From positions 1 through 64,000 of the forward strand of contig CAJOFY010000018.1 of NCBI GenBank assembly GCA_905233945.1: a stretch of 64,000 nt of DNA. The letters run 5' to 3'. Positions within the stretch are counted from its first letter, which is position 1; every line of letters begins with the position of its first letter. Source of the stretch: an uncultured bacterium. GTDB taxonomy: Bacteria > UBP6 > UBA1177. Both the position numbers and the translations under genes were made by a program. Shown here piece by piece: positions 56,390 to 64,000 of the stretch. The notes under the pieces are model-generated. The model worked only from the letters and a program-made list of their open reading frames with translations, was not told the origin of the DNA and made no database searches.

Positions 56390-59300
56390 ATGAGAAGGTT
56401 TTTGAGCTTGGTTCTTGTTTTTGCCGCGTTGTTAGCTGTTTCGTGCAGCGGCAAGAAGAAATCGCATGATGAGAACGCGTACGTGGAACAAGTGTCGAAA
56501 GAGATTTCTGCCTTGGCAGGCGGAACGGTCGAAAGTTCCGACGGAAAGACTTCGGTCGAGATTCCGGGCGGCGCGCTTGACAGTGATACTGTGATCACAA
56601 TGACGATTTACGATGCCGAAGGTTATGCGGGAACTGAAGAAATTGATACTGTGAGCAAAGTTGTCGAGTTCGAGCCGAGCGGCATAATTTTCAAAAAACC
56701 GGTCATAATTTCGATGCCAAGCCTCAAGGATACCGGAAACAGGATAATTGCTGCGGCAGTTTTACATGAAAAAGAGGGAAAATGGAGCTACAGCGAAACA
56801 GGCGCAGCAGTAAAAATAGCCGGACGTACCGAAACGGGCGATCCGATAATGACAAGCGCTTCCGGCGATCCGATCATTCTGAATGCATCTGGAGATCCTG
56901 TAATGACGATCGCTTCCGGCGATCCCATCATGCTGAGTGCATCCGGTGATCCGATAATGGTTACAGCTTCCGGTGATCCGATAATGAACTCGGCTTCCGG
57001 TGATCCGATAATGATGACGACAGGCCATTTCTCATCCTACACCTTCCTCGCTCTTGATTCGTCAGAAGCTGTCAAACCTGATAATGAACCTGCTGATGAC
57101 ACAGACACATCGGATACCGAAATGCCGGATATCAATGATAACGATGAGATAGGCGAAACAGATGATGACGGACCGGTTGACGACGCAGACACGTCTGATG
57201 ACGATATAACGGATGACGATACAACGGATAACGATACAACAGTCATCGATGATGACGATGAAATTGAGGATATTGATGATCCTGACAACGAACCGGAAGA
57301 GGATGACGAACCGGCAGATGACACCGATACGGTAATTCCGGAGCCAGAACCGCAGTATTCCAATGTTCTCTGCACGAATATGACGATCTGCACGAACGAT
57401 AAAGGTGAGCAGATTGTCTGCCAGGCGGAAGATACGGATTTTTACGGTCAGGATGCGCAGTATGCGGTAAGAAAATCGTGTGTGCCGCATCGCTCCTTTG
57501 CAAAAGTCCCGAAACCTGAGATCATTGAAAACGATTTTGTAGAGGTCAAGGACGATTTCACCGGCCTTACATGGCTTTTCACCGGAGCAAAAGGAGCTTA
57601 CGAAGACCTTAAAAACGGCTGCGACATCTCTTACGGCGGAAAAGAGGACTGGAGACTGCCGACTCCTAAAGAATTTTTCACGCTTTCTCACAACGAGATG
57701 CTTTTCCGCGGTATCGCGGCAGTTGATCCGTTTTATTTCGGAAAGATCGTTGAAAGCGGCGAAGACAGCGGCTATTTCGGAATTTACGCATGGAGCTCGA
57801 TCGAAGGTTATCTTTATTCGTTTGAAAACGGAGGGCTCCTGCCTCTGGAATACTATGCGAATAACTCATCTTATTTCACTGACGGTCTTCTTGCCTGCGT
57901 AAGCGGCAAGGAATACGGAAAAGTCAAGGCGGCGAACTATGTTCCTGTTGCTGAAAGCGAAGGAAAGGTGATCCTTGATGCCGGAACAAATCTTTACTGG
58001 CAGAAAGATTCTGCCCTGATCAACTCATGGAAAGAGGCTCTTTCATACTGCGAAAACCTTGAATATGCAGGGTATGACGACTGGAGACTTCCCAACAAAA
58101 ACGAGCTTCTGAGCCTTATCGACTATTCAAAAGCAGGCACGGAAGCGGAAGTTTTTTCATCGTTTCCCGGCATGACACCTGACATTTTCTGGAGTTCGAC
58201 AGGTTCGAACCACGGAGCGTGGGTCGCATATATGAACGACGGAACTTTAAATGTAAGCGGAGGAGAAGGCGGAGGTGTTGTCGTCGTCGATAACGCCTAT
58301 ACGAGGAGCATCAAAAGAGACGAGATCGAAGATGGAGAAGAGGAATACGAGCCTCGACCGGCAGTGCGCTGCGTAAGAAGTCTTCTTGATGAGAAAACTG
58401 ATATCCCGGCATGCGGCGAAACAGGCATCGCGCCCTGCAAAGACGCAAACGGAACAGTCTGGTCATCAGTCATATATCCTAAATTTTTTGCCGGTTTCGA
58501 CAAAGAGCTGATCCATGAAAGCGGAGGCGGAGGTTGCGGAGGCGAATGCAGAGGCTCTGACAAATCGGTAAGTTCTCTCTATTCTTATTCTATAATTGAT
58601 GTGTGCCGTGATCTTTACGAAAGCGGCTCGCACAAGTGGAGACTTCCGACGATAGACGAGATCCGCTCGCTTGTTACGACCGATAAAATCAAAACCGGCG
58701 GAAGCTGCGGTGTTACGGCAGCATGTTCTGAAGAATCCTGTTTCAGTGAAGATGACTGCACCGGCGACGATTCCTCGGAAACAATTCTTTTTGATTACGG
58801 ATTTATGCTTTCAGGAACAACGTACTTTGACGATGGTGAAATCAGTATTCTTGAATTTTGGGGTGTGAGCGTAGAGGAGGGCGCACTTGCGGCTATTTCC
58901 GGAGAGATCCCCCTTTCGGAACTTGCCCAGAGGTGTGTTCTCGACGAAACTCTCGACTATAAGGAAACGCCGTATCTTGATCCTGAAACTGGACTTCTCT
59001 GGTCCGATATTTCATCAGATTATTTGTATTTCGAAGAAGCGGAAGACTACTGTTCCAGTCTTATGGAAGGGACGGATCGCTACTGGAGACTTCCGACTGT
59101 GGATGAACTCCTGACGCTTGTTGTAAACTGCAGCGAAGATGAGGCTCCGTGCCCGATGGATCTGAACGGAAAATACTCCGTTTTCCGCGATAACGAAGGT
59201 TTATGGTCGTCAGAAGAGGTCGGAAACGATCATTACATTGTCTATTTTGAAGATGCCTCAGTTTGGAAGGGGCATTATGGTTCATACACCCGCTGCGTTT

Positions 59301-60133
59301 CCGACGGGCCGAACCCGTGCAACAACGATCCGTGTGCAGCTGATCCGCTCGCGACCGGATGTTTCCCTGATTCTTCCGAGGTATATCACTGCGGATGCGT
59401 GGAAAATTACACCTGGGACGGCGGAGAAAAGGTATGCAAGGCAAGTACCAAAACCGAGAACTGCAACGCTGAACTGCCGGAAAATGCGGAGTGGTGGAGT
59501 GCAAGCATAACCCAGACATGGAGTGGAAACGCGTGGCTGCCTGAAATAACAGGCGAAGCAATTTACAGCTACGAAGAGGTCGAAAACGAATGCCGCTTCA
59601 AATGCAGTGAGGGCTATTTCTGGGAAAGCGAAAAATGTCTCCCGGAATGCGGTTCCGGCAACAAATTCCCGTGCATAGATACTGAAACCATGCTGATATG
59701 GTCTTCGCGGTCGGATGAAGAAATTGGGATGGAAGATAACGCTGCCGCTTCCCATTGCGAAGGCATCGACGAAGGCGGATTTACCGACTGGAGACTGCCG
59801 ACCATCGATGAACTGAGAACGCTGATACAAAACTGCGCCGGCTCACAGGCAGACGGAGAATGTGCGATATCTGATCTGGAGGATCATTTGTCCGATGTTG
59901 ACTATATTGCTGGTGATTGTGCCTGCGAAGACATAGAGAACAACGAGGGTCATTACAGCAAATTAGGTGATGATGACACCGTTTCCCTCTGGTCTTCCTC
60001 TGCTCGGTCTGACAAAACATACTATTATTGGCTTGTAGATTTTATCTCCGGGAGTTTGTACTCCAAAGATGAGGAGAGCCCCTACTATGTCCGCTGTGTT
60101 AGGAAGGAACAGCATATTTTACCGTCGAATTAG
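56390..60133 (+). CDS. Giant modular lipoprotein: ZU5-like, GDPIM repeats, FYGQD module, five DUF1566
   Basis: A 1247-residue surface lipoprotein (lipobox AVSC, Cys19). Residues 40-145 look like a ZU5 domain (GGTVESSDGKTSVEIPGGAL to VVEFEPSGIIFKKPVIISMP). Seven 9-residue repeats SGDPIMxxA span about 150-212. An acidic Asp-rich linker runs to about 320. A Cys-rich block with DFYGQDAQYA (about 350) precedes DUF1566 units, whose WRLP hallmark recurs near 421, 565, 750, 899 and 1134. An EGF-like segment and a QTWSGNAWLPE module lie between the fourth and fifth units. GGAGG precedes the ATG. It is likely an adhesin or ligand-binding surface protein; this is inferred from DUF1566 in Lcl. Confidence 0.85.
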   Translation: MRRFLSLVLVFAALLAVSCSGKKKSHDENAYVEQVSKEISALAGGTVESSDGKTSVEIPGGALDSDTVITMTIYDAEGYAGTEEIDTVSKVVEFEPSGIIFKKPVIISMPSLKDTGNRIIAAAVLHEKEGKWSYSETGAAVKIAGRTETGDPIMTSASGDPIILNASGDPVMTIASGDPIMLSASGDPIMVTASGDPIMNSASGDPIMMTTGHFSSYTFLALDSSEAVKPDNEPADDTDTSDTEMPDINDNDEIGETDDDGPVDDADTSDDDITDDDTTDNDTTVIDDDDEIEDIDDPDNEPEEDDEPADDTDTVIPEPEPQYSNVLCTNMTICTNDKGEQIVCQAEDTDFYGQDAQYAVRKSCVPHRSFAKVPKPEIIENDFVEVKDDFTGLTWLFTGAKGAYEDLKNGCDISYGGKEDWRLPTPKEFFTLSHNEMLFRGIAAVDPFYFGKIVESGEDSGYFGIYAWSSIEGYLYSFENGGLLPLEYYANNSSYFTDGLLACVSGKEYGKVKAANYVPVAESEGKVILDAGTNLYWQKDSALINSWKEALSYCENLEYAGYDDWRLPNKNELLSLIDYSKAGTEAEVFSSFPGMTPDIFWSSTGSNHGAWVAYMNDGTLNVSGGEGGGVVVVDNAYTRSIKRDEIEDGEEEYEPRPAVRCVRSLLDEKTDIPACGETGIAPCKDANGTVWSSVIYPKFFAGFDKELIHESGGGGCGGECRGSDKSVSSLYSYSIIDVCRDLYESGSHKWRLPTIDEIRSLVTTDKIKTGGSCGVTAACSEESCFSEDDCTGDDSSETILFDYGFMLSGTTYFDDGEISILEFWGVSVEEGALAAISGEIPLSELAQRCVLDETLDYKETPYLDPETGLLWSDISSDYLYFEEAEDYCSSLMEGTDRYWRLPTVDELLTLVVNCSEDEAPCPMDLNGKYSVFRDNEGLWSSEEVGNDHYIVYFEDASVWKGHYGSYTRCVSDGPNPCNNDPCAADPLATGCFPDSSEVYHCGCVENYTWDGGEKVCKASTKTENCNAELPENAEWWSASITQTWSGNAWLPEITGEAIYSYEEVENECRFKCSEGYFWESEKCLPECGSGNKFPCIDTETMLIWSSRSDEEIGMEDNAAASHCEGIDEGGFTDWRLPTIDELRTLIQNCAGSQADGECAISDLEDHLSDVDYIAGDCACEDIENNEGHYSKLGDDDTVSLWSSSARSDKTYYYWLVDFISGSLYSKDEESPYYVRCVRKEQHILPSN
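56837..57025 (+). repeat. Seven 27-bp units encoding SGDPIMxxA
   Basis: Successive nonapeptides start at residues 150, 159, 168, 177, 186, 195 and 204. GDP and Ile/Val-Met/Ile are fixed, while positions 6-7 vary (TS, LN, TI, LS, VT, NS, MT). Confidence 0.9.
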
Positions 60134-60147
60134 CAGGGAGTTTAGGT

Positions 60148-60178
60148 AAATTTGTAGAGACGTGACCTGACACGTCTC
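60148..60178. repeat. 31-base hairpin repeat, copy 2
   Basis: Same element as 56339-56369. Here the stem is a perfect 8 bp (GAGACGTG with CACGTCTC, loop ACCTGA). It is the first of six adjacent hairpins. Confidence 0.65.
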
Positions 60179-60186
60179 GGTTTATT

Positions 60187-60282
60187 CCCCCGCTAAGTTA
60201 GAGGGGGTGCCGCGGAAGCGGCGGGGGCGTGTGTGACACACTCCACAGTCAGTAAACTGACAGCTCCCCTAATTAGGGGAGC
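60187..60282. repeat. Array of consecutive stem-loops between the two lipoprotein genes
   Basis: Five further stems follow the 31-base repeat without long gaps: CCCCC/GGGGG (60187-60207), GCCGC-GGAA-GCGGC (60209-60222), GTGTG-TGA-CACAC (60229-60241), GTCAGT-AA-ACTGAC (60248-60261) and the perfect 20-base palindrome 60263-60282 (GCTCCCCTAA and its complement). There is no coding capacity. Confidence 0.7.
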
Positions 60283-60303
60283 AGAATATAAGGGAGGGTT
60301 TTC

Positions 60304-62778
60304 ATGAGAAGGTTTTTGATTCCGGTTCTTGTTTTTGTCGCGGTTTTTGCTGTTTCGTGCGGCGGAGACAAAAAAACAAATAACGGCGGCAGCAGCGAAG
60401 AAGCGAAACCAGTTGCAGAGGTTTCGCAGGAGATTACGGCTGAAGAAGGGGGAAAAATCGAGGCCGAAACCAAGGACGAGGCCGTTTCGATCGAGATTCC
60501 GGCAGGAGCTCTTGACGAAGACGTGAAAATCACGATGAAAATTTTCGATGCCAAAGGTTACAAAGGGACGGATGGGCTTGATGTAATCAGCAAAGTAGTC
60601 GAATTCGAGCCGAGCGGCATTGTTTTCAAAAAGCCCGTAATAATCACAATGAAAGCTCTCAAGGATGTAACGAACAAAATAATATCTGCTGCAGTTTACC
60701 GCGAATCGAAAGGGGAATGGAGTTACAGCGAAACCGGTGCAGCGGTAAAAATGACCGGACGCACCGAATCGGGCGACCCGATAATGACAAGCGCTTCGGG
60801 CGACCCCATCATGCTGAACGCATCGGGTGATCCGATAATGACAAGCGCTTCAGGTGATCCCATCATGCTGAGCGCATCGGGCGATCCGATTATGGTTACA
60901 GCTTCGGGAGATCCAATAATGAATTCGGCCTCCGGCGATCCGATAATGATGACGACTGGTCACTTCACATCCTATACATTCGTCGTTGTCAAGCAGGAAA
61001 AAACAGATGATTCCGATGATTCCGACACGGCAGATGAAGAAATCATCGATAATGACGATAGCGACGCTGACACAGAGCCGGTCAAACCGGAAGAAGATAC
61101 TCCTGTAATCAATGATAACGACGAGTCTGAAGATGCCGATGACATTGATGCGGATATTGATGATGATGAAATCGACGACATTGATGATGATATAGATGAT
61201 GACATAAATGATATTGAAGTCGTTGACGATGACGCCGACACAGACACGACGGAACCCGACAGCGACATTCCTGAACCAAGTGACACCGATACCGAACCGG
61301 CAGGACCCGACCCTTGTGCGGACGATCCGTGCGAAGATATCGTCCATTCCGACGGCGTATGCAGTGTTAAAGCGGTTGACGGCGCGAAAACTTATGCCTG
61401 CGGCTGTGTTGCTCCGTATGCATGGGACGGCTCGAAGTGTTCAAGTAGCTGCGCAAGTGATCCGTGTTCGACAGTCCAGCACTCGACCGGAATATGTTAT
61501 CCGAAACCGGATGACGAATACGAATGCGGCTGCGCGGAAAACTACTACTGGGATGGCTCGGCAAAGAAGTGTGACAACCCGTGTCTGGCAGATCCGTGCG
61601 GCAGTGTTCCTCATACAACTGGATGCGTTCCGGAAACGGGAACCGAATATGTCTGCACCTGCGAAGAGCTCTATGCATGGGAGGGCTCGACAAAGAAGTG
61701 CGTAAGCCCGTGCGATTCAAGTCCGTGCGCGGCATTCGAACATGCGACTTCCTGCACGGCGAAGGCATCTGATTTCTATGTCTGCGGCTGCGAGGAAGGC
61801 TTCTACTGGTGGGGAACGGTGAAAGGATGCACCGCTGAACAGCCGGTATTCGGCAGAATCTGCACTTCACAGCTTAAATGCTACGACGAAAACAGAGAAA
61901 TTCCGTGTCCGGCGCCGGGCGAACCTTTTTACGGTCAGGATGCGAACAAGGCGCGTGAAGGTCTGTGCGCTCCTAAGAGTTTCACTATTGTGGATACCGG
62001 AATCGAGGATGAAAAAATCGTTCGCGACAACAATACAAGGCTTGAGTGGATGAAACGTCCCGATAGCGGAAGCTGGAGGTGGAACGATTCCAAGTCACAC
62101 TGCAACGACCTTAGTTACGGCGGTTACGATGACTGGAGAGCACCCACTCCGAAAGAGTTTCTGACTATCGTTGACAACGACAAAAAAAATCCTTCGCTTG
62201 ACATGAACTATTTTGATTATTCAAACGACTATCTATGGACATCCGCCAAACAGGCCAACCCCAACGACACGATGTACTGGGCTGTTGATTTTGATTCCGG
62301 AGAGCTGAAGCGTATTGCGAACACCTCGAATATTTATGTGCGCTGCGTCCGCGGCGATACAATGCCCGAAAGTTCGTTTACGATTCCGGACATCTACGCG
62401 GAAGCCGAAGAAAAGATAGTTTTAGATACGCTGACCGGACTTCAGTGGCAGTATAACGATTTGGCCATCAGCGACATAGACTCTTTCTGGCGTAAAGCTA
62501 TTGAATACTGCGAAAACCTGACTTATGCGGGATTCTCTGACTGGAGACTTCCCAACAAGGAGGAACTCGCGACAATTGCCGATTACGGCAGATACAATCC
62601 GGCATCATCTTTCCCCGACATAGCGAATGTCAATGATCTGCTGACTTCTACCACGATACCTGAAAAGACCTATGCCTCATTCCAGCTTTCTCTGCCGCAC
62701 GGTGTTTTGGAAAGTTCGTGGTGGAAGACTGAGGGATCATCGACAACTTATCATGTCCGCTGCGTCCGTTCGGAATAA
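60304..62778 (+). CDS. Modular lipoprotein paralogue: ZU5-like, GDPIM repeats, EGF-like modules, DUF1566
   Basis: An 824-residue lipoprotein (lipobox AVSC, Cys19), closely related to its upstream neighbour in the first 215 residues (ZU5-like region, then seven SGDPIMxxA repeats at about 157-219). An acidic linker (225-335) is followed by four EGF-like modules with the pattern DPCxxxxHxxGxC...YxCxCxxxYxWDG (337-520). Then come the Cys block with PFYGQDANKA (about 545) and two DUF1566 units (WRAPTPKEF near 612; WRLPNKEELATI near 747). Compared with the neighbour, the C-terminal half has been reshuffled. GGGAGG lies before the ATG. A surface adhesin or binding role is likely but unproven. Confidence 0.85.
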   Translation: MRRFLIPVLVFVAVFAVSCGGDKKTNNGGSSEEAKPVAEVSQEITAEEGGKIEAETKDEAVSIEIPAGALDEDVKITMKIFDAKGYKGTDGLDVISKVVEFEPSGIVFKKPVIITMKALKDVTNKIISAAVYRESKGEWSYSETGAAVKMTGRTESGDPIMTSASGDPIMLNASGDPIMTSASGDPIMLSASGDPIMVTASGDPIMNSASGDPIMMTTGHFTSYTFVVVKQEKTDDSDDSDTADEEIIDNDDSDADTEPVKPEEDTPVINDNDESEDADDIDADIDDDEIDDIDDDIDDDINDIEVVDDDADTDTTEPDSDIPEPSDTDTEPAGPDPCADDPCEDIVHSDGVCSVKAVDGAKTYACGCVAPYAWDGSKCSSSCASDPCSTVQHSTGICYPKPDDEYECGCAENYYWDGSAKKCDNPCLADPCGSVPHTTGCVPETGTEYVCTCEELYAWEGSTKKCVSPCDSSPCAAFEHATSCTAKASDFYVCGCEEGFYWWGTVKGCTAEQPVFGRICTSQLKCYDENREIPCPAPGEPFYGQDANKAREGLCAPKSFTIVDTGIEDEKIVRDNNTRLEWMKRPDSGSWRWNDSKSHCNDLSYGGYDDWRAPTPKEFLTIVDNDKKNPSLDMNYFDYSNDYLWTSAKQANPNDTMYWAVDFDSGELKRIANTSNIYVRCVRGDTMPESSFTIPDIYAEAEEKIVLDTLTGLQWQYNDLAISDIDSFWRKAIEYCENLTYAGFSDWRLPNKEELATIADYGRYNPASSFPDIANVNDLLTSTTIPEKTYASFQLSLPHGVLESSWWKTEGSSTTYHVRCVRSE
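60772..60960 (+). repeat. Seven 27-bp units encoding SGDPIMxxA (paralogue)
   Basis: Same number of units and nearly the same variable residues, in the same order, as 56837-57025. Confidence 0.9.
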
Positions 62779-62967: not shown

Positions 62968-64000
62968 ATGAAAAGAATCTTGCTATGTTTTTCGGGATTT
63001 TGTTTGTTGTTTCTGCTTGAAGGCTGCAGTAAAAAAGAATCAATCTACGATTCTTTTTCAGATGATGAGGAAAATGTAACAAAATGCGGCACTTTGGATG
63101 CTGAATGCTGTCAGAACCGGATCTGTCACAACGGACTGGTCTGCGACATAAAGCTCAATATCTGCAAGGAAAAAGTCGGAGAAAGCGATACCGACGATGA
63201 TATTCCGGAACAGGATTTTCCAGACGAGGATTTTTTTGAAGAAGATTCGGAACGGGAGGACTCCGGCGGCGACGACAACGATTTTGTTGAAGATGAGCCG
63301 GAAGATGACGATTCCGGTGATGACGATCATATTCAAACTCCATGTGAACCTAATCCCTGCGTGTGGGTTGCAAATTCTACGGGGATATGCGCATTGGAAG
63401 AAAACGACGGATATTTTTGTAAATGTCAAACAAACTATACATGGAATCCGTCAACTTTAAAATGCGAAGCCGACACAAGAAGCGCGGAATGTCCGCCGAA
63501 GCCGGAAAACACAGTTTGGAGCGATTCCGAAGCAGGCGGCTTATTCTCGCAGACATGGAGTTCTTCAGGCTGGAAACCTGAAATTTCTGCTTCAACTTAC
63601 AGCGAATCGGCTGAAATCTGCGCATTTAAATGTGTTTCTGAAGATTATAAATGGAACGGTTCCGAGTGCATAAACTTGTGCATGCCGGAAAATCCCTGTA
63701 CCGGATTTGCAAATTCAACGGGAAACTGCACAACAATCAGTCCGACGGAATATTTATGCGAATGCAGCAGCGGATATTTCTGGTGGGGAGCTGAGACAGG
63801 CTGCACAAAAAATCTTAATCTCGGCAGAATATGCACAGCTCTCGACAAATGTTACAATAATTTAGCTCAAATAGAGTGTCAGAATCCAGGCGGAGATTTT
63901 TTCGGGCAGGATGTGCAGTATGCGGCTTCAGGCAGCTGTACTCCGCAGGATTTTTCGATTGTCGAGACTGAAATTGAAAATGAAAAAATCATTCTTGACA
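62968..64000 (+). CDS. Third modular surface lipoprotein, 3' end beyond the window
   Basis: An open frame from the ATG at 62968 to the window edge (344 codons, no stop). The lipobox is LEGC (Cys20). It lacks the ZU5 and GDPIM parts of its neighbours: a Cys-rich module (CGTLDAECCQNRICHNGLVC) and an acidic linker (about 75-130) lead to an EGF-like module (EPNPCVWVANSTGICALEEN), a QTWSSSGWKPE module, another EGF-like module (ENPCTGFANSTGNCTTI), and the Cys block with DFFGQDVQYAASGSC. The sequence ends where a DUF1566 domain begins in the other two proteins, so one is expected just outside. Confidence 0.85.
   Translation, partial: MKRILLCFSGFCLLFLLEGCSKKESIYDSFSDDEENVTKCGTLDAECCQNRICHNGLVCDIKLNICKEKVGESDTDDDIPEQDFPDEDFFEEDSEREDSGGDDNDFVEDEPEDDDSGDDDHIQTPCEPNPCVWVANSTGICALEENDGYFCKCQTNYTWNPSTLKCEADTRSAECPPKPENTVWSDSEAGGLFSQTWSSSGWKPEISASTYSESAEICAFKCVSEDYKWNGSECINLCMPENPCTGFANSTGNCTTISPTEYLCECSSGYFWWGAETGCTKNLNLGRICTALDKCYNNLAQIECQNPGGDFFGQDVQYAASGSCTPQDFSIVETEIENEKIILD

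Follow-up and report, generated by a model that had tools for sequence, protein, structure and literature searches.

The ZU5 heads of two neighbouring lipoproteins from an uncultured bacterium of the UBP6 lineage (UBA1177) carry a tandem array of GDPIM units, which is an innovation of one UBP6 order. The array is ancient and not a product of recent slippage, selection acts on every unit, and its wording is the slowest-changing part of these heads. In terms of anatomy alone, it is almost certainly an old order-specific insertion, placed in the hairpin that joins the penultimate strand of the ZU5/GAIN-type fold to the strand before it. The ZU5 domain that bears it is known; what is new is the ancient, order-specific tandem insert.

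The array and its place in the ZU5 fold

The window, that is the whole stretch of 64,000 nucleotides that was analysed, encodes the two lipoproteins on its forward strand, on which all features given below for it are located. Both open with a lipoprotein signal ending in ...AVSC, and the ZU5 head is the membrane-proximal part of these surface proteins. Lipoprotein 1 (56390..60133; 1247 aa) consists of a signal peptide with the lipobox AVSC, the ZU5 head with its GDPIM array, an acidic low-complexity linker (57059..57360, approximate bounds from the sequence) and five Lcl_C stretches, the best of which (PF07603) spans 57968..58261. Lipoprotein 2 (60304..62778; 824 aa) shares this type of head and has a similar acidic low-complexity linker (61000..61338, likewise approximate), which falls far into the disordered side of the charge-hydropathy plot, along with EGF-like Cys-rich repeats and two Lcl_C stretches, the best one at 62017..62352. 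In both proteins Lcl_C lies downstream of ZU5. A third consecutive lipoprotein with an acidic linker and EGF-like Cys repeats occupies 62968-64000 and extends past the window end; ZU5 and the array are both absent from the portion inside the window.

Each of the two heads contains seven tandem 9-residue units, as an earlier note on this DNA had claimed, at 56834..57022 in lipoprotein 1 and 60769..60957 in lipoprotein 2. Their form is SGDPIMxxA with infrequent exchange of I/V and M/I, or more precisely (T/S)GDP(I/V)(M/I)xx(A/T) in lipoprotein 1 and SGDPIMxx(A/T) in lipoprotein 2. The variable pairs read TS, LN, TI, LS, VT, NS, MT in the former and TS, LN, TS, LS, VT, NS, MT in the latter, and so differ at unit 3 alone (TI versus TS).

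The Pfam-matched part of the ZU5 core (PF00791) lies at 56516..56722 in lipoprotein 1 and 60439..60702 in lipoprotein 2, with scores of 23.7 and 29.3 bits against a curated cut-off of 21. AlphaFold models the ZU5 part with a pLDDT of about 80-91; Foldseek relates it to the ankyrin/UNC5b ZU5 domains (2.7e-5; structures 3ud2, 3g5b and 3f59 at prob 1.00) and to the GAIN domain of BAI3 (4.5e-3, prob 1.00), and the profile A1 matches ankyrin ZU5 at 1.9e-7. Membership in ZU5 is thus borne out by both the profile cut-off and the beta-sandwich fold. The large sister family adopts the ZU5 fold too (most top matches at prob 0.75-0.98), which Pfam misses. The array had been placed between a ZU5-like domain and the acidic linker; the domain is indeed a true ZU5, but the array resides inside its fold, with the final unit GDPIMMTTGH forming the penultimate strand and the turn that follows carrying an H-F-[S/T] triad. 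In the AlphaFold model this turn is found between strands 178-184 and 187-193. The triad is HFS in lipoprotein 1 (residues 213-215; 57026..57034), a predicted ZU5 self-cleavage site by homology to the HF/S of PIDD (PMC3210808), and HFT, likewise predicted to be such a site, in lipoprotein 2 (residues 220-222; 60961..60969). In lipoprotein 1 the G of the last GDP precedes the H of the triad by 9 residues.

This register, which the earlier note overlooked, is widely kept. HF[ST] is present in all 71 aligned type I heads (47 T, 24 S), and among 110 distinct arrays [HN][FY][ST] follows in 104, with the triad offset from the last GDP by exactly 9 residues in 85 and exactly 18 in 15. In bacteria of other phyla, eight of nine ZU5 loci show H[FL][ST] at the equivalent place, and the repeats are lacking; the distance from the conserved W strand to the H, counted by eye, is 18-23 residues in them versus about 80 here, which marks the array as an insertion before the penultimate strand. 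These heads accordingly differ from known ZU5 domains in having a tandem GDPIM array of 50-100 residues instead of a short turn at this point, and also in being carried by bacterial lipoproteins; no UPA or death domain was found with them. HF[ST] is widespread in bacterial ZU5 domains and thus not peculiar to the array-bearing ones, and the register between triad and array could stem merely from insertion into a fixed hairpin.

The PF00791 match above cut-off, the ankyrin/UNC5b fold and the H-F-[S/T] of the last hairpin are all likenesses to the ZU5/GAIN/Nup98 autoproteolytic superfamily. In PIDD, self-cleavage occurs at HF/S behind each ZU5 domain, CARD8 and NLRP1 cut themselves at SF/S, and in these proteins the fragments remain associated (PMC3210808), while GAIN domains self-cleave at HL|S/T (PMC11697300). 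Zhang et al. 2012 (PMC3482391), in the part available to us, suggested ZU5 self-processing for bacterial surface proteins that likewise combine ZU5 with adhesion modules; unlike here, a tandem insert is unmentioned in that part. Going by motif and fold, we give an even chance to the proposal that the heads described here self-cleave at HF|[S/T].

Distribution, spacing and copy number

The 2.65 Mb host genome (G000) contains 57-59 GDPIM motifs, depending on the pattern used, and these are confined to seven genes. That number is not due to chance, as the GDPIM DNA pattern has 57 matches in this genome and the reversed control pattern has none; a spacing control with an 8-residue period had no match in 28 genomes. 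The host's order is represented by 25 genomes, and 23 of these have 6-114 occurrences each of the GGNGAYCCNATNATG motif. In G007 there are three occurrences, in an unrelated context, and in G013 none. All three genomes from UBP6's other order lack the motif, and it is at chance level (<=4) in 214 further genomes; it is this presence in 23 of 25 genomes, set against absence or chance level in the 217 others, that identifies the array as one order's invention. The array-bearing relatives are metagenome-assembled genomes (MAGs) from the rumen and other ruminant guts, of which some are labelled UBP6 (UBA1177, UBA1209) and some Spirochaetales, the latter probably a mislabel. A scan of viral contigs for the 9-residue period returned nothing, and the five matches of a 6-residue scan were all Gly/Met-rich low complexity of the GGDPMM type and were rejected as instances of the GDPIM repeat. 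Phage matches by tblastn show 33-40% identity at E 9e-4 to 7e-3. A protein of G007 (L181, on C90) with three GDPIM copies is not ZU5-like (AGGDPIMASGTAEG...), and this was the sole such context seen.

Of the 463 gaps that separate motifs in 80 distinct arrays, 447 have a length divisible by three: 373 are of 9 residues and 34 of 6, and the remainder are mostly 12-36 residues. Degenerate units such as GEEIMISAA, GEQKMLSAA and GNSSSLCAA still step by 9. Directly before the triad, heads from the order's other genera and families have 6-residue units (SGDPIM, AGDPIM, QGDPIM). Seven or eight units per array are the norm in the genus. The count of canonical motifs is 3-9 for most ZU5 lipoproteins and 18 for one of them; in the large sister proteins the main array holds about 9-12, a small further array lies upstream in some, and the total reaches 21 at most. 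The claim of exactly seven units consequently holds for both window proteins and fails in relatives, where the copy number per array spans about 2 to 18; this variability, the 6-residue units of deeper relatives and the multiple-of-three spacing had escaped the earlier note.

One type of head is combined with varied tails, including Lcl_C, DUF6273 and disintegrin/EGF/TSP3. The protein with 18 motifs (L118; 2433 aa) mixes 6- and 9-residue spacing and has six DUF6273 stretches. L055 is a fusion of a head of 6-residue units with six disintegrin-like stretches, one EGF-like stretch and one thrombospondin type 3 repeat; such a combination is more familiar from animals. Two short lipoproteins, L005 (on C24 of the host genome) and L106, share the common ZU5-array head and have another kind of Cys-rich tail, that of L106 matching no Pfam family. 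The host genome also encodes large lipoproteins whose ZU5 fold is unseen by Pfam and whose main array has 9-11 units (L155:1578-9482 on C2, and L156 on C39); the one on C2, of 2634 aa, has six Lcl_C stretches and, in a domain further upstream, a small second array built of 6-residue units. A third close paralogue of the window proteins (L002; C1:161656 onward) has a full seven-unit head and a frameshift within the acidic linker, after which the Lcl_C part resumes in a different frame, the result of pseudogene formation, phase variation or an assembly error.

G013 is 97% complete and the sole near-complete member of the genus without GDPIM; no large sister protein was found in it. Its one ZU5 lipoprotein (L053; C47:28697-29254) has a block of 62 aa, against 63, made of decayed units, which by eye can be divided into the seven steps GQFVISTNQ, GDSVSVSAD, GSLVVNIE, GREVLLSGK, RDPFSITED, AEPISGTEL and NNSLNMAAG. 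The triad has become HLG, without its S/T. In this single case the GDPIM wording and the nucleophile were lost together, and the block length was retained.

Conservation and nature of the array

The GDP and hydrophobic pair had been described as nearly invariant, and the 431 units of defined register bear this out: D is conserved at 95, P at 97, I at 93 and M at 97%, with G at 100% because it served as the anchor. In the most distant heads, identity to lipoprotein 2 over the ZU5 part is down to 35-46%, and it is against this figure that the 93-97% of GDPIM makes the array wording the slowest to evolve. The residue pairs reported to be specific to each position and kept between paralogues proved so as well: in 25 distinct seven-unit arrays the variable residues agree by unit index at 0.539, versus 0.319 in within-array shuffles (z ~38, not readable as a probability since the arrays share kinship). 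Although the array is a tandem repeat at the DNA level, its origin by neutral slippage of a 27-bp unit has next to no probability, as units of one array agree at third positions to only 0.535, versus 0.48 for units of different arrays, pS is 0.61, nearly saturated, within arrays, and pN/pS of the GDPIM core is 0.077. Between same-index units pS is saturated at about 0.68, and the earlier view of selection on each unit in place of slippage is upheld. The same conservation weighs against reading the array as a surface-loop spacer, flexible and without a specific partner. Such a spacer would agree with the very low AlphaFold confidence in the array, the differing length among paralogues and the location in a surface hairpin. 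However, it would need neither 93-97% identity per position throughout the order, with the ZU5 fold down to 35-46%, nor position-specific residues, and we regard it as improbable.

Alternatively, the array might be a small beta-solenoid or beta-roll-like stack capping the ZU5 sandwich, with a GD(P) turn and a PIMx strand from each unit. AlphaFold predicts short PIMx strands in four of the seven units of the window-protein array, by its composition the block falls among folded sequences in the charge-hydropathy plot, the side chains are position-specific, there is weak similarity to RTX beta-rolls, and the spacing is orderly, in that gaps are multiples of three, degenerate units hold the 9-residue step and even the decayed block of G013 retains an apparent 9-periodicity. 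Against such a stack, the pLDDT of these units is 49-66, and a sister protein's array of 11 units is nearly structureless at ~30 (AlphaFold, 16 sequences), so that structure prediction does not sustain the fixed fold with one turn per unit that had been suggested at the outset. Units of 6 and 9 residues together with gaps of 12, 15 and 18 residues are found within one array, array size is far from constant, and I/M are rarely swapped for L/V at the hydrophobic positions; the near invariance of I/M may equally mean packing in a fold that is invisible to AlphaFold with a shallow alignment. On balance we think this architecture unlikely, if still the chief competitor of the explanation preferred below. 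It is far less conceivable that the array is a divergent calcium-binding RTX repeat (GGxGxDxUx). Like RTX (PF00353), it has a period of 9 with G-D and then two hydrophobics per unit, and phmmer and tblastn place the sequences closest to the block chiefly among RTX proteins, CyaA (E 4.6e-3, PDB) being one; plasmid matches at E 5e-5 to 7e-4 include calcium-binding proteins of 31-33% identity, and the best of them (37.7%, 5e-5) is annotated as a peroxidase family protein. Yet PF00353 is unmatched even at E<=10, the calcium-ligand Asp of position 6 is replaced by Pro in 97% of units, deep type I relatives use 6-residue units, and the array lacks GGxGxD and sits within another domain. In sequence, then, the resemblance to RTX reads as convergence in period, in keeping with the earlier remark that the period is that of RTX and the motif a different one.

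The strict 6-residue period (xGDPIM) of deep relatives is reminiscent of the hexapeptide left-handed beta-helix, whose consensus is [LIV]-[GAED]-x-x-[STAV]-x. The array departs from this consensus, and the hexapeptide profile matched neither the window block nor L055, the protein with a hexapeptide array. No Pfam or NCBIfam model matches the array block at cut-off, in line with the statement that it has no named repeat family; weak matches to PGDYG, DUF1150, ChapFlgA and Zf_2nd_IFT121 are far under their cut-offs and are attributed to chance. The string SGDPIM had no occurrence in the literature searched.

A possible role at the cell surface

The explanation that we propose as a whole unites the array insertion, a self-cleaving head and multivalent GDPIM recognition or self-association, and we hold it to be plausible, though somewhat short of even probability. 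The last array unit, as the penultimate strand, runs in fixed register into the H-F-[S/T] triad, and the head would cut itself at HF|[S/T] in the manner of PIDD, CARD8 and adhesion GPCRs, whereupon the acidic linker and the adhesive tail would be retained solely through the last strand. The GDPIM units, the identical 'word' in all paralogues, would serve multivalent recognition or self-association and may dock the heads to one shared partner or to one another at the cell surface, with copy number setting avidity or reach. The recognition role of the array is in itself a tentative assignment. It is a more speculative and rather doubtful step to see GDPIM as a lineage-specific code, by which a common partner or homotypic pairing would read all ZU5 heads and thereby assemble self-cleaving adhesins into one surface system. 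If that were true, G013, with both wording and nucleophile gone from its only head, would represent a loss of the system.

Here a tandem pentapeptide changes far more slowly than its folded carrier in several families of one order, to which it seems confined. Through its fixed register with the ZU5/GAIN triad, the array is tied to a mechanism so far known in detail from adhesion receptors and inflammasome proteins of animals. The GDPIM pattern points to an unrecognised rule of surface interaction or assembly in these little-known uncultured rumen bacteria.
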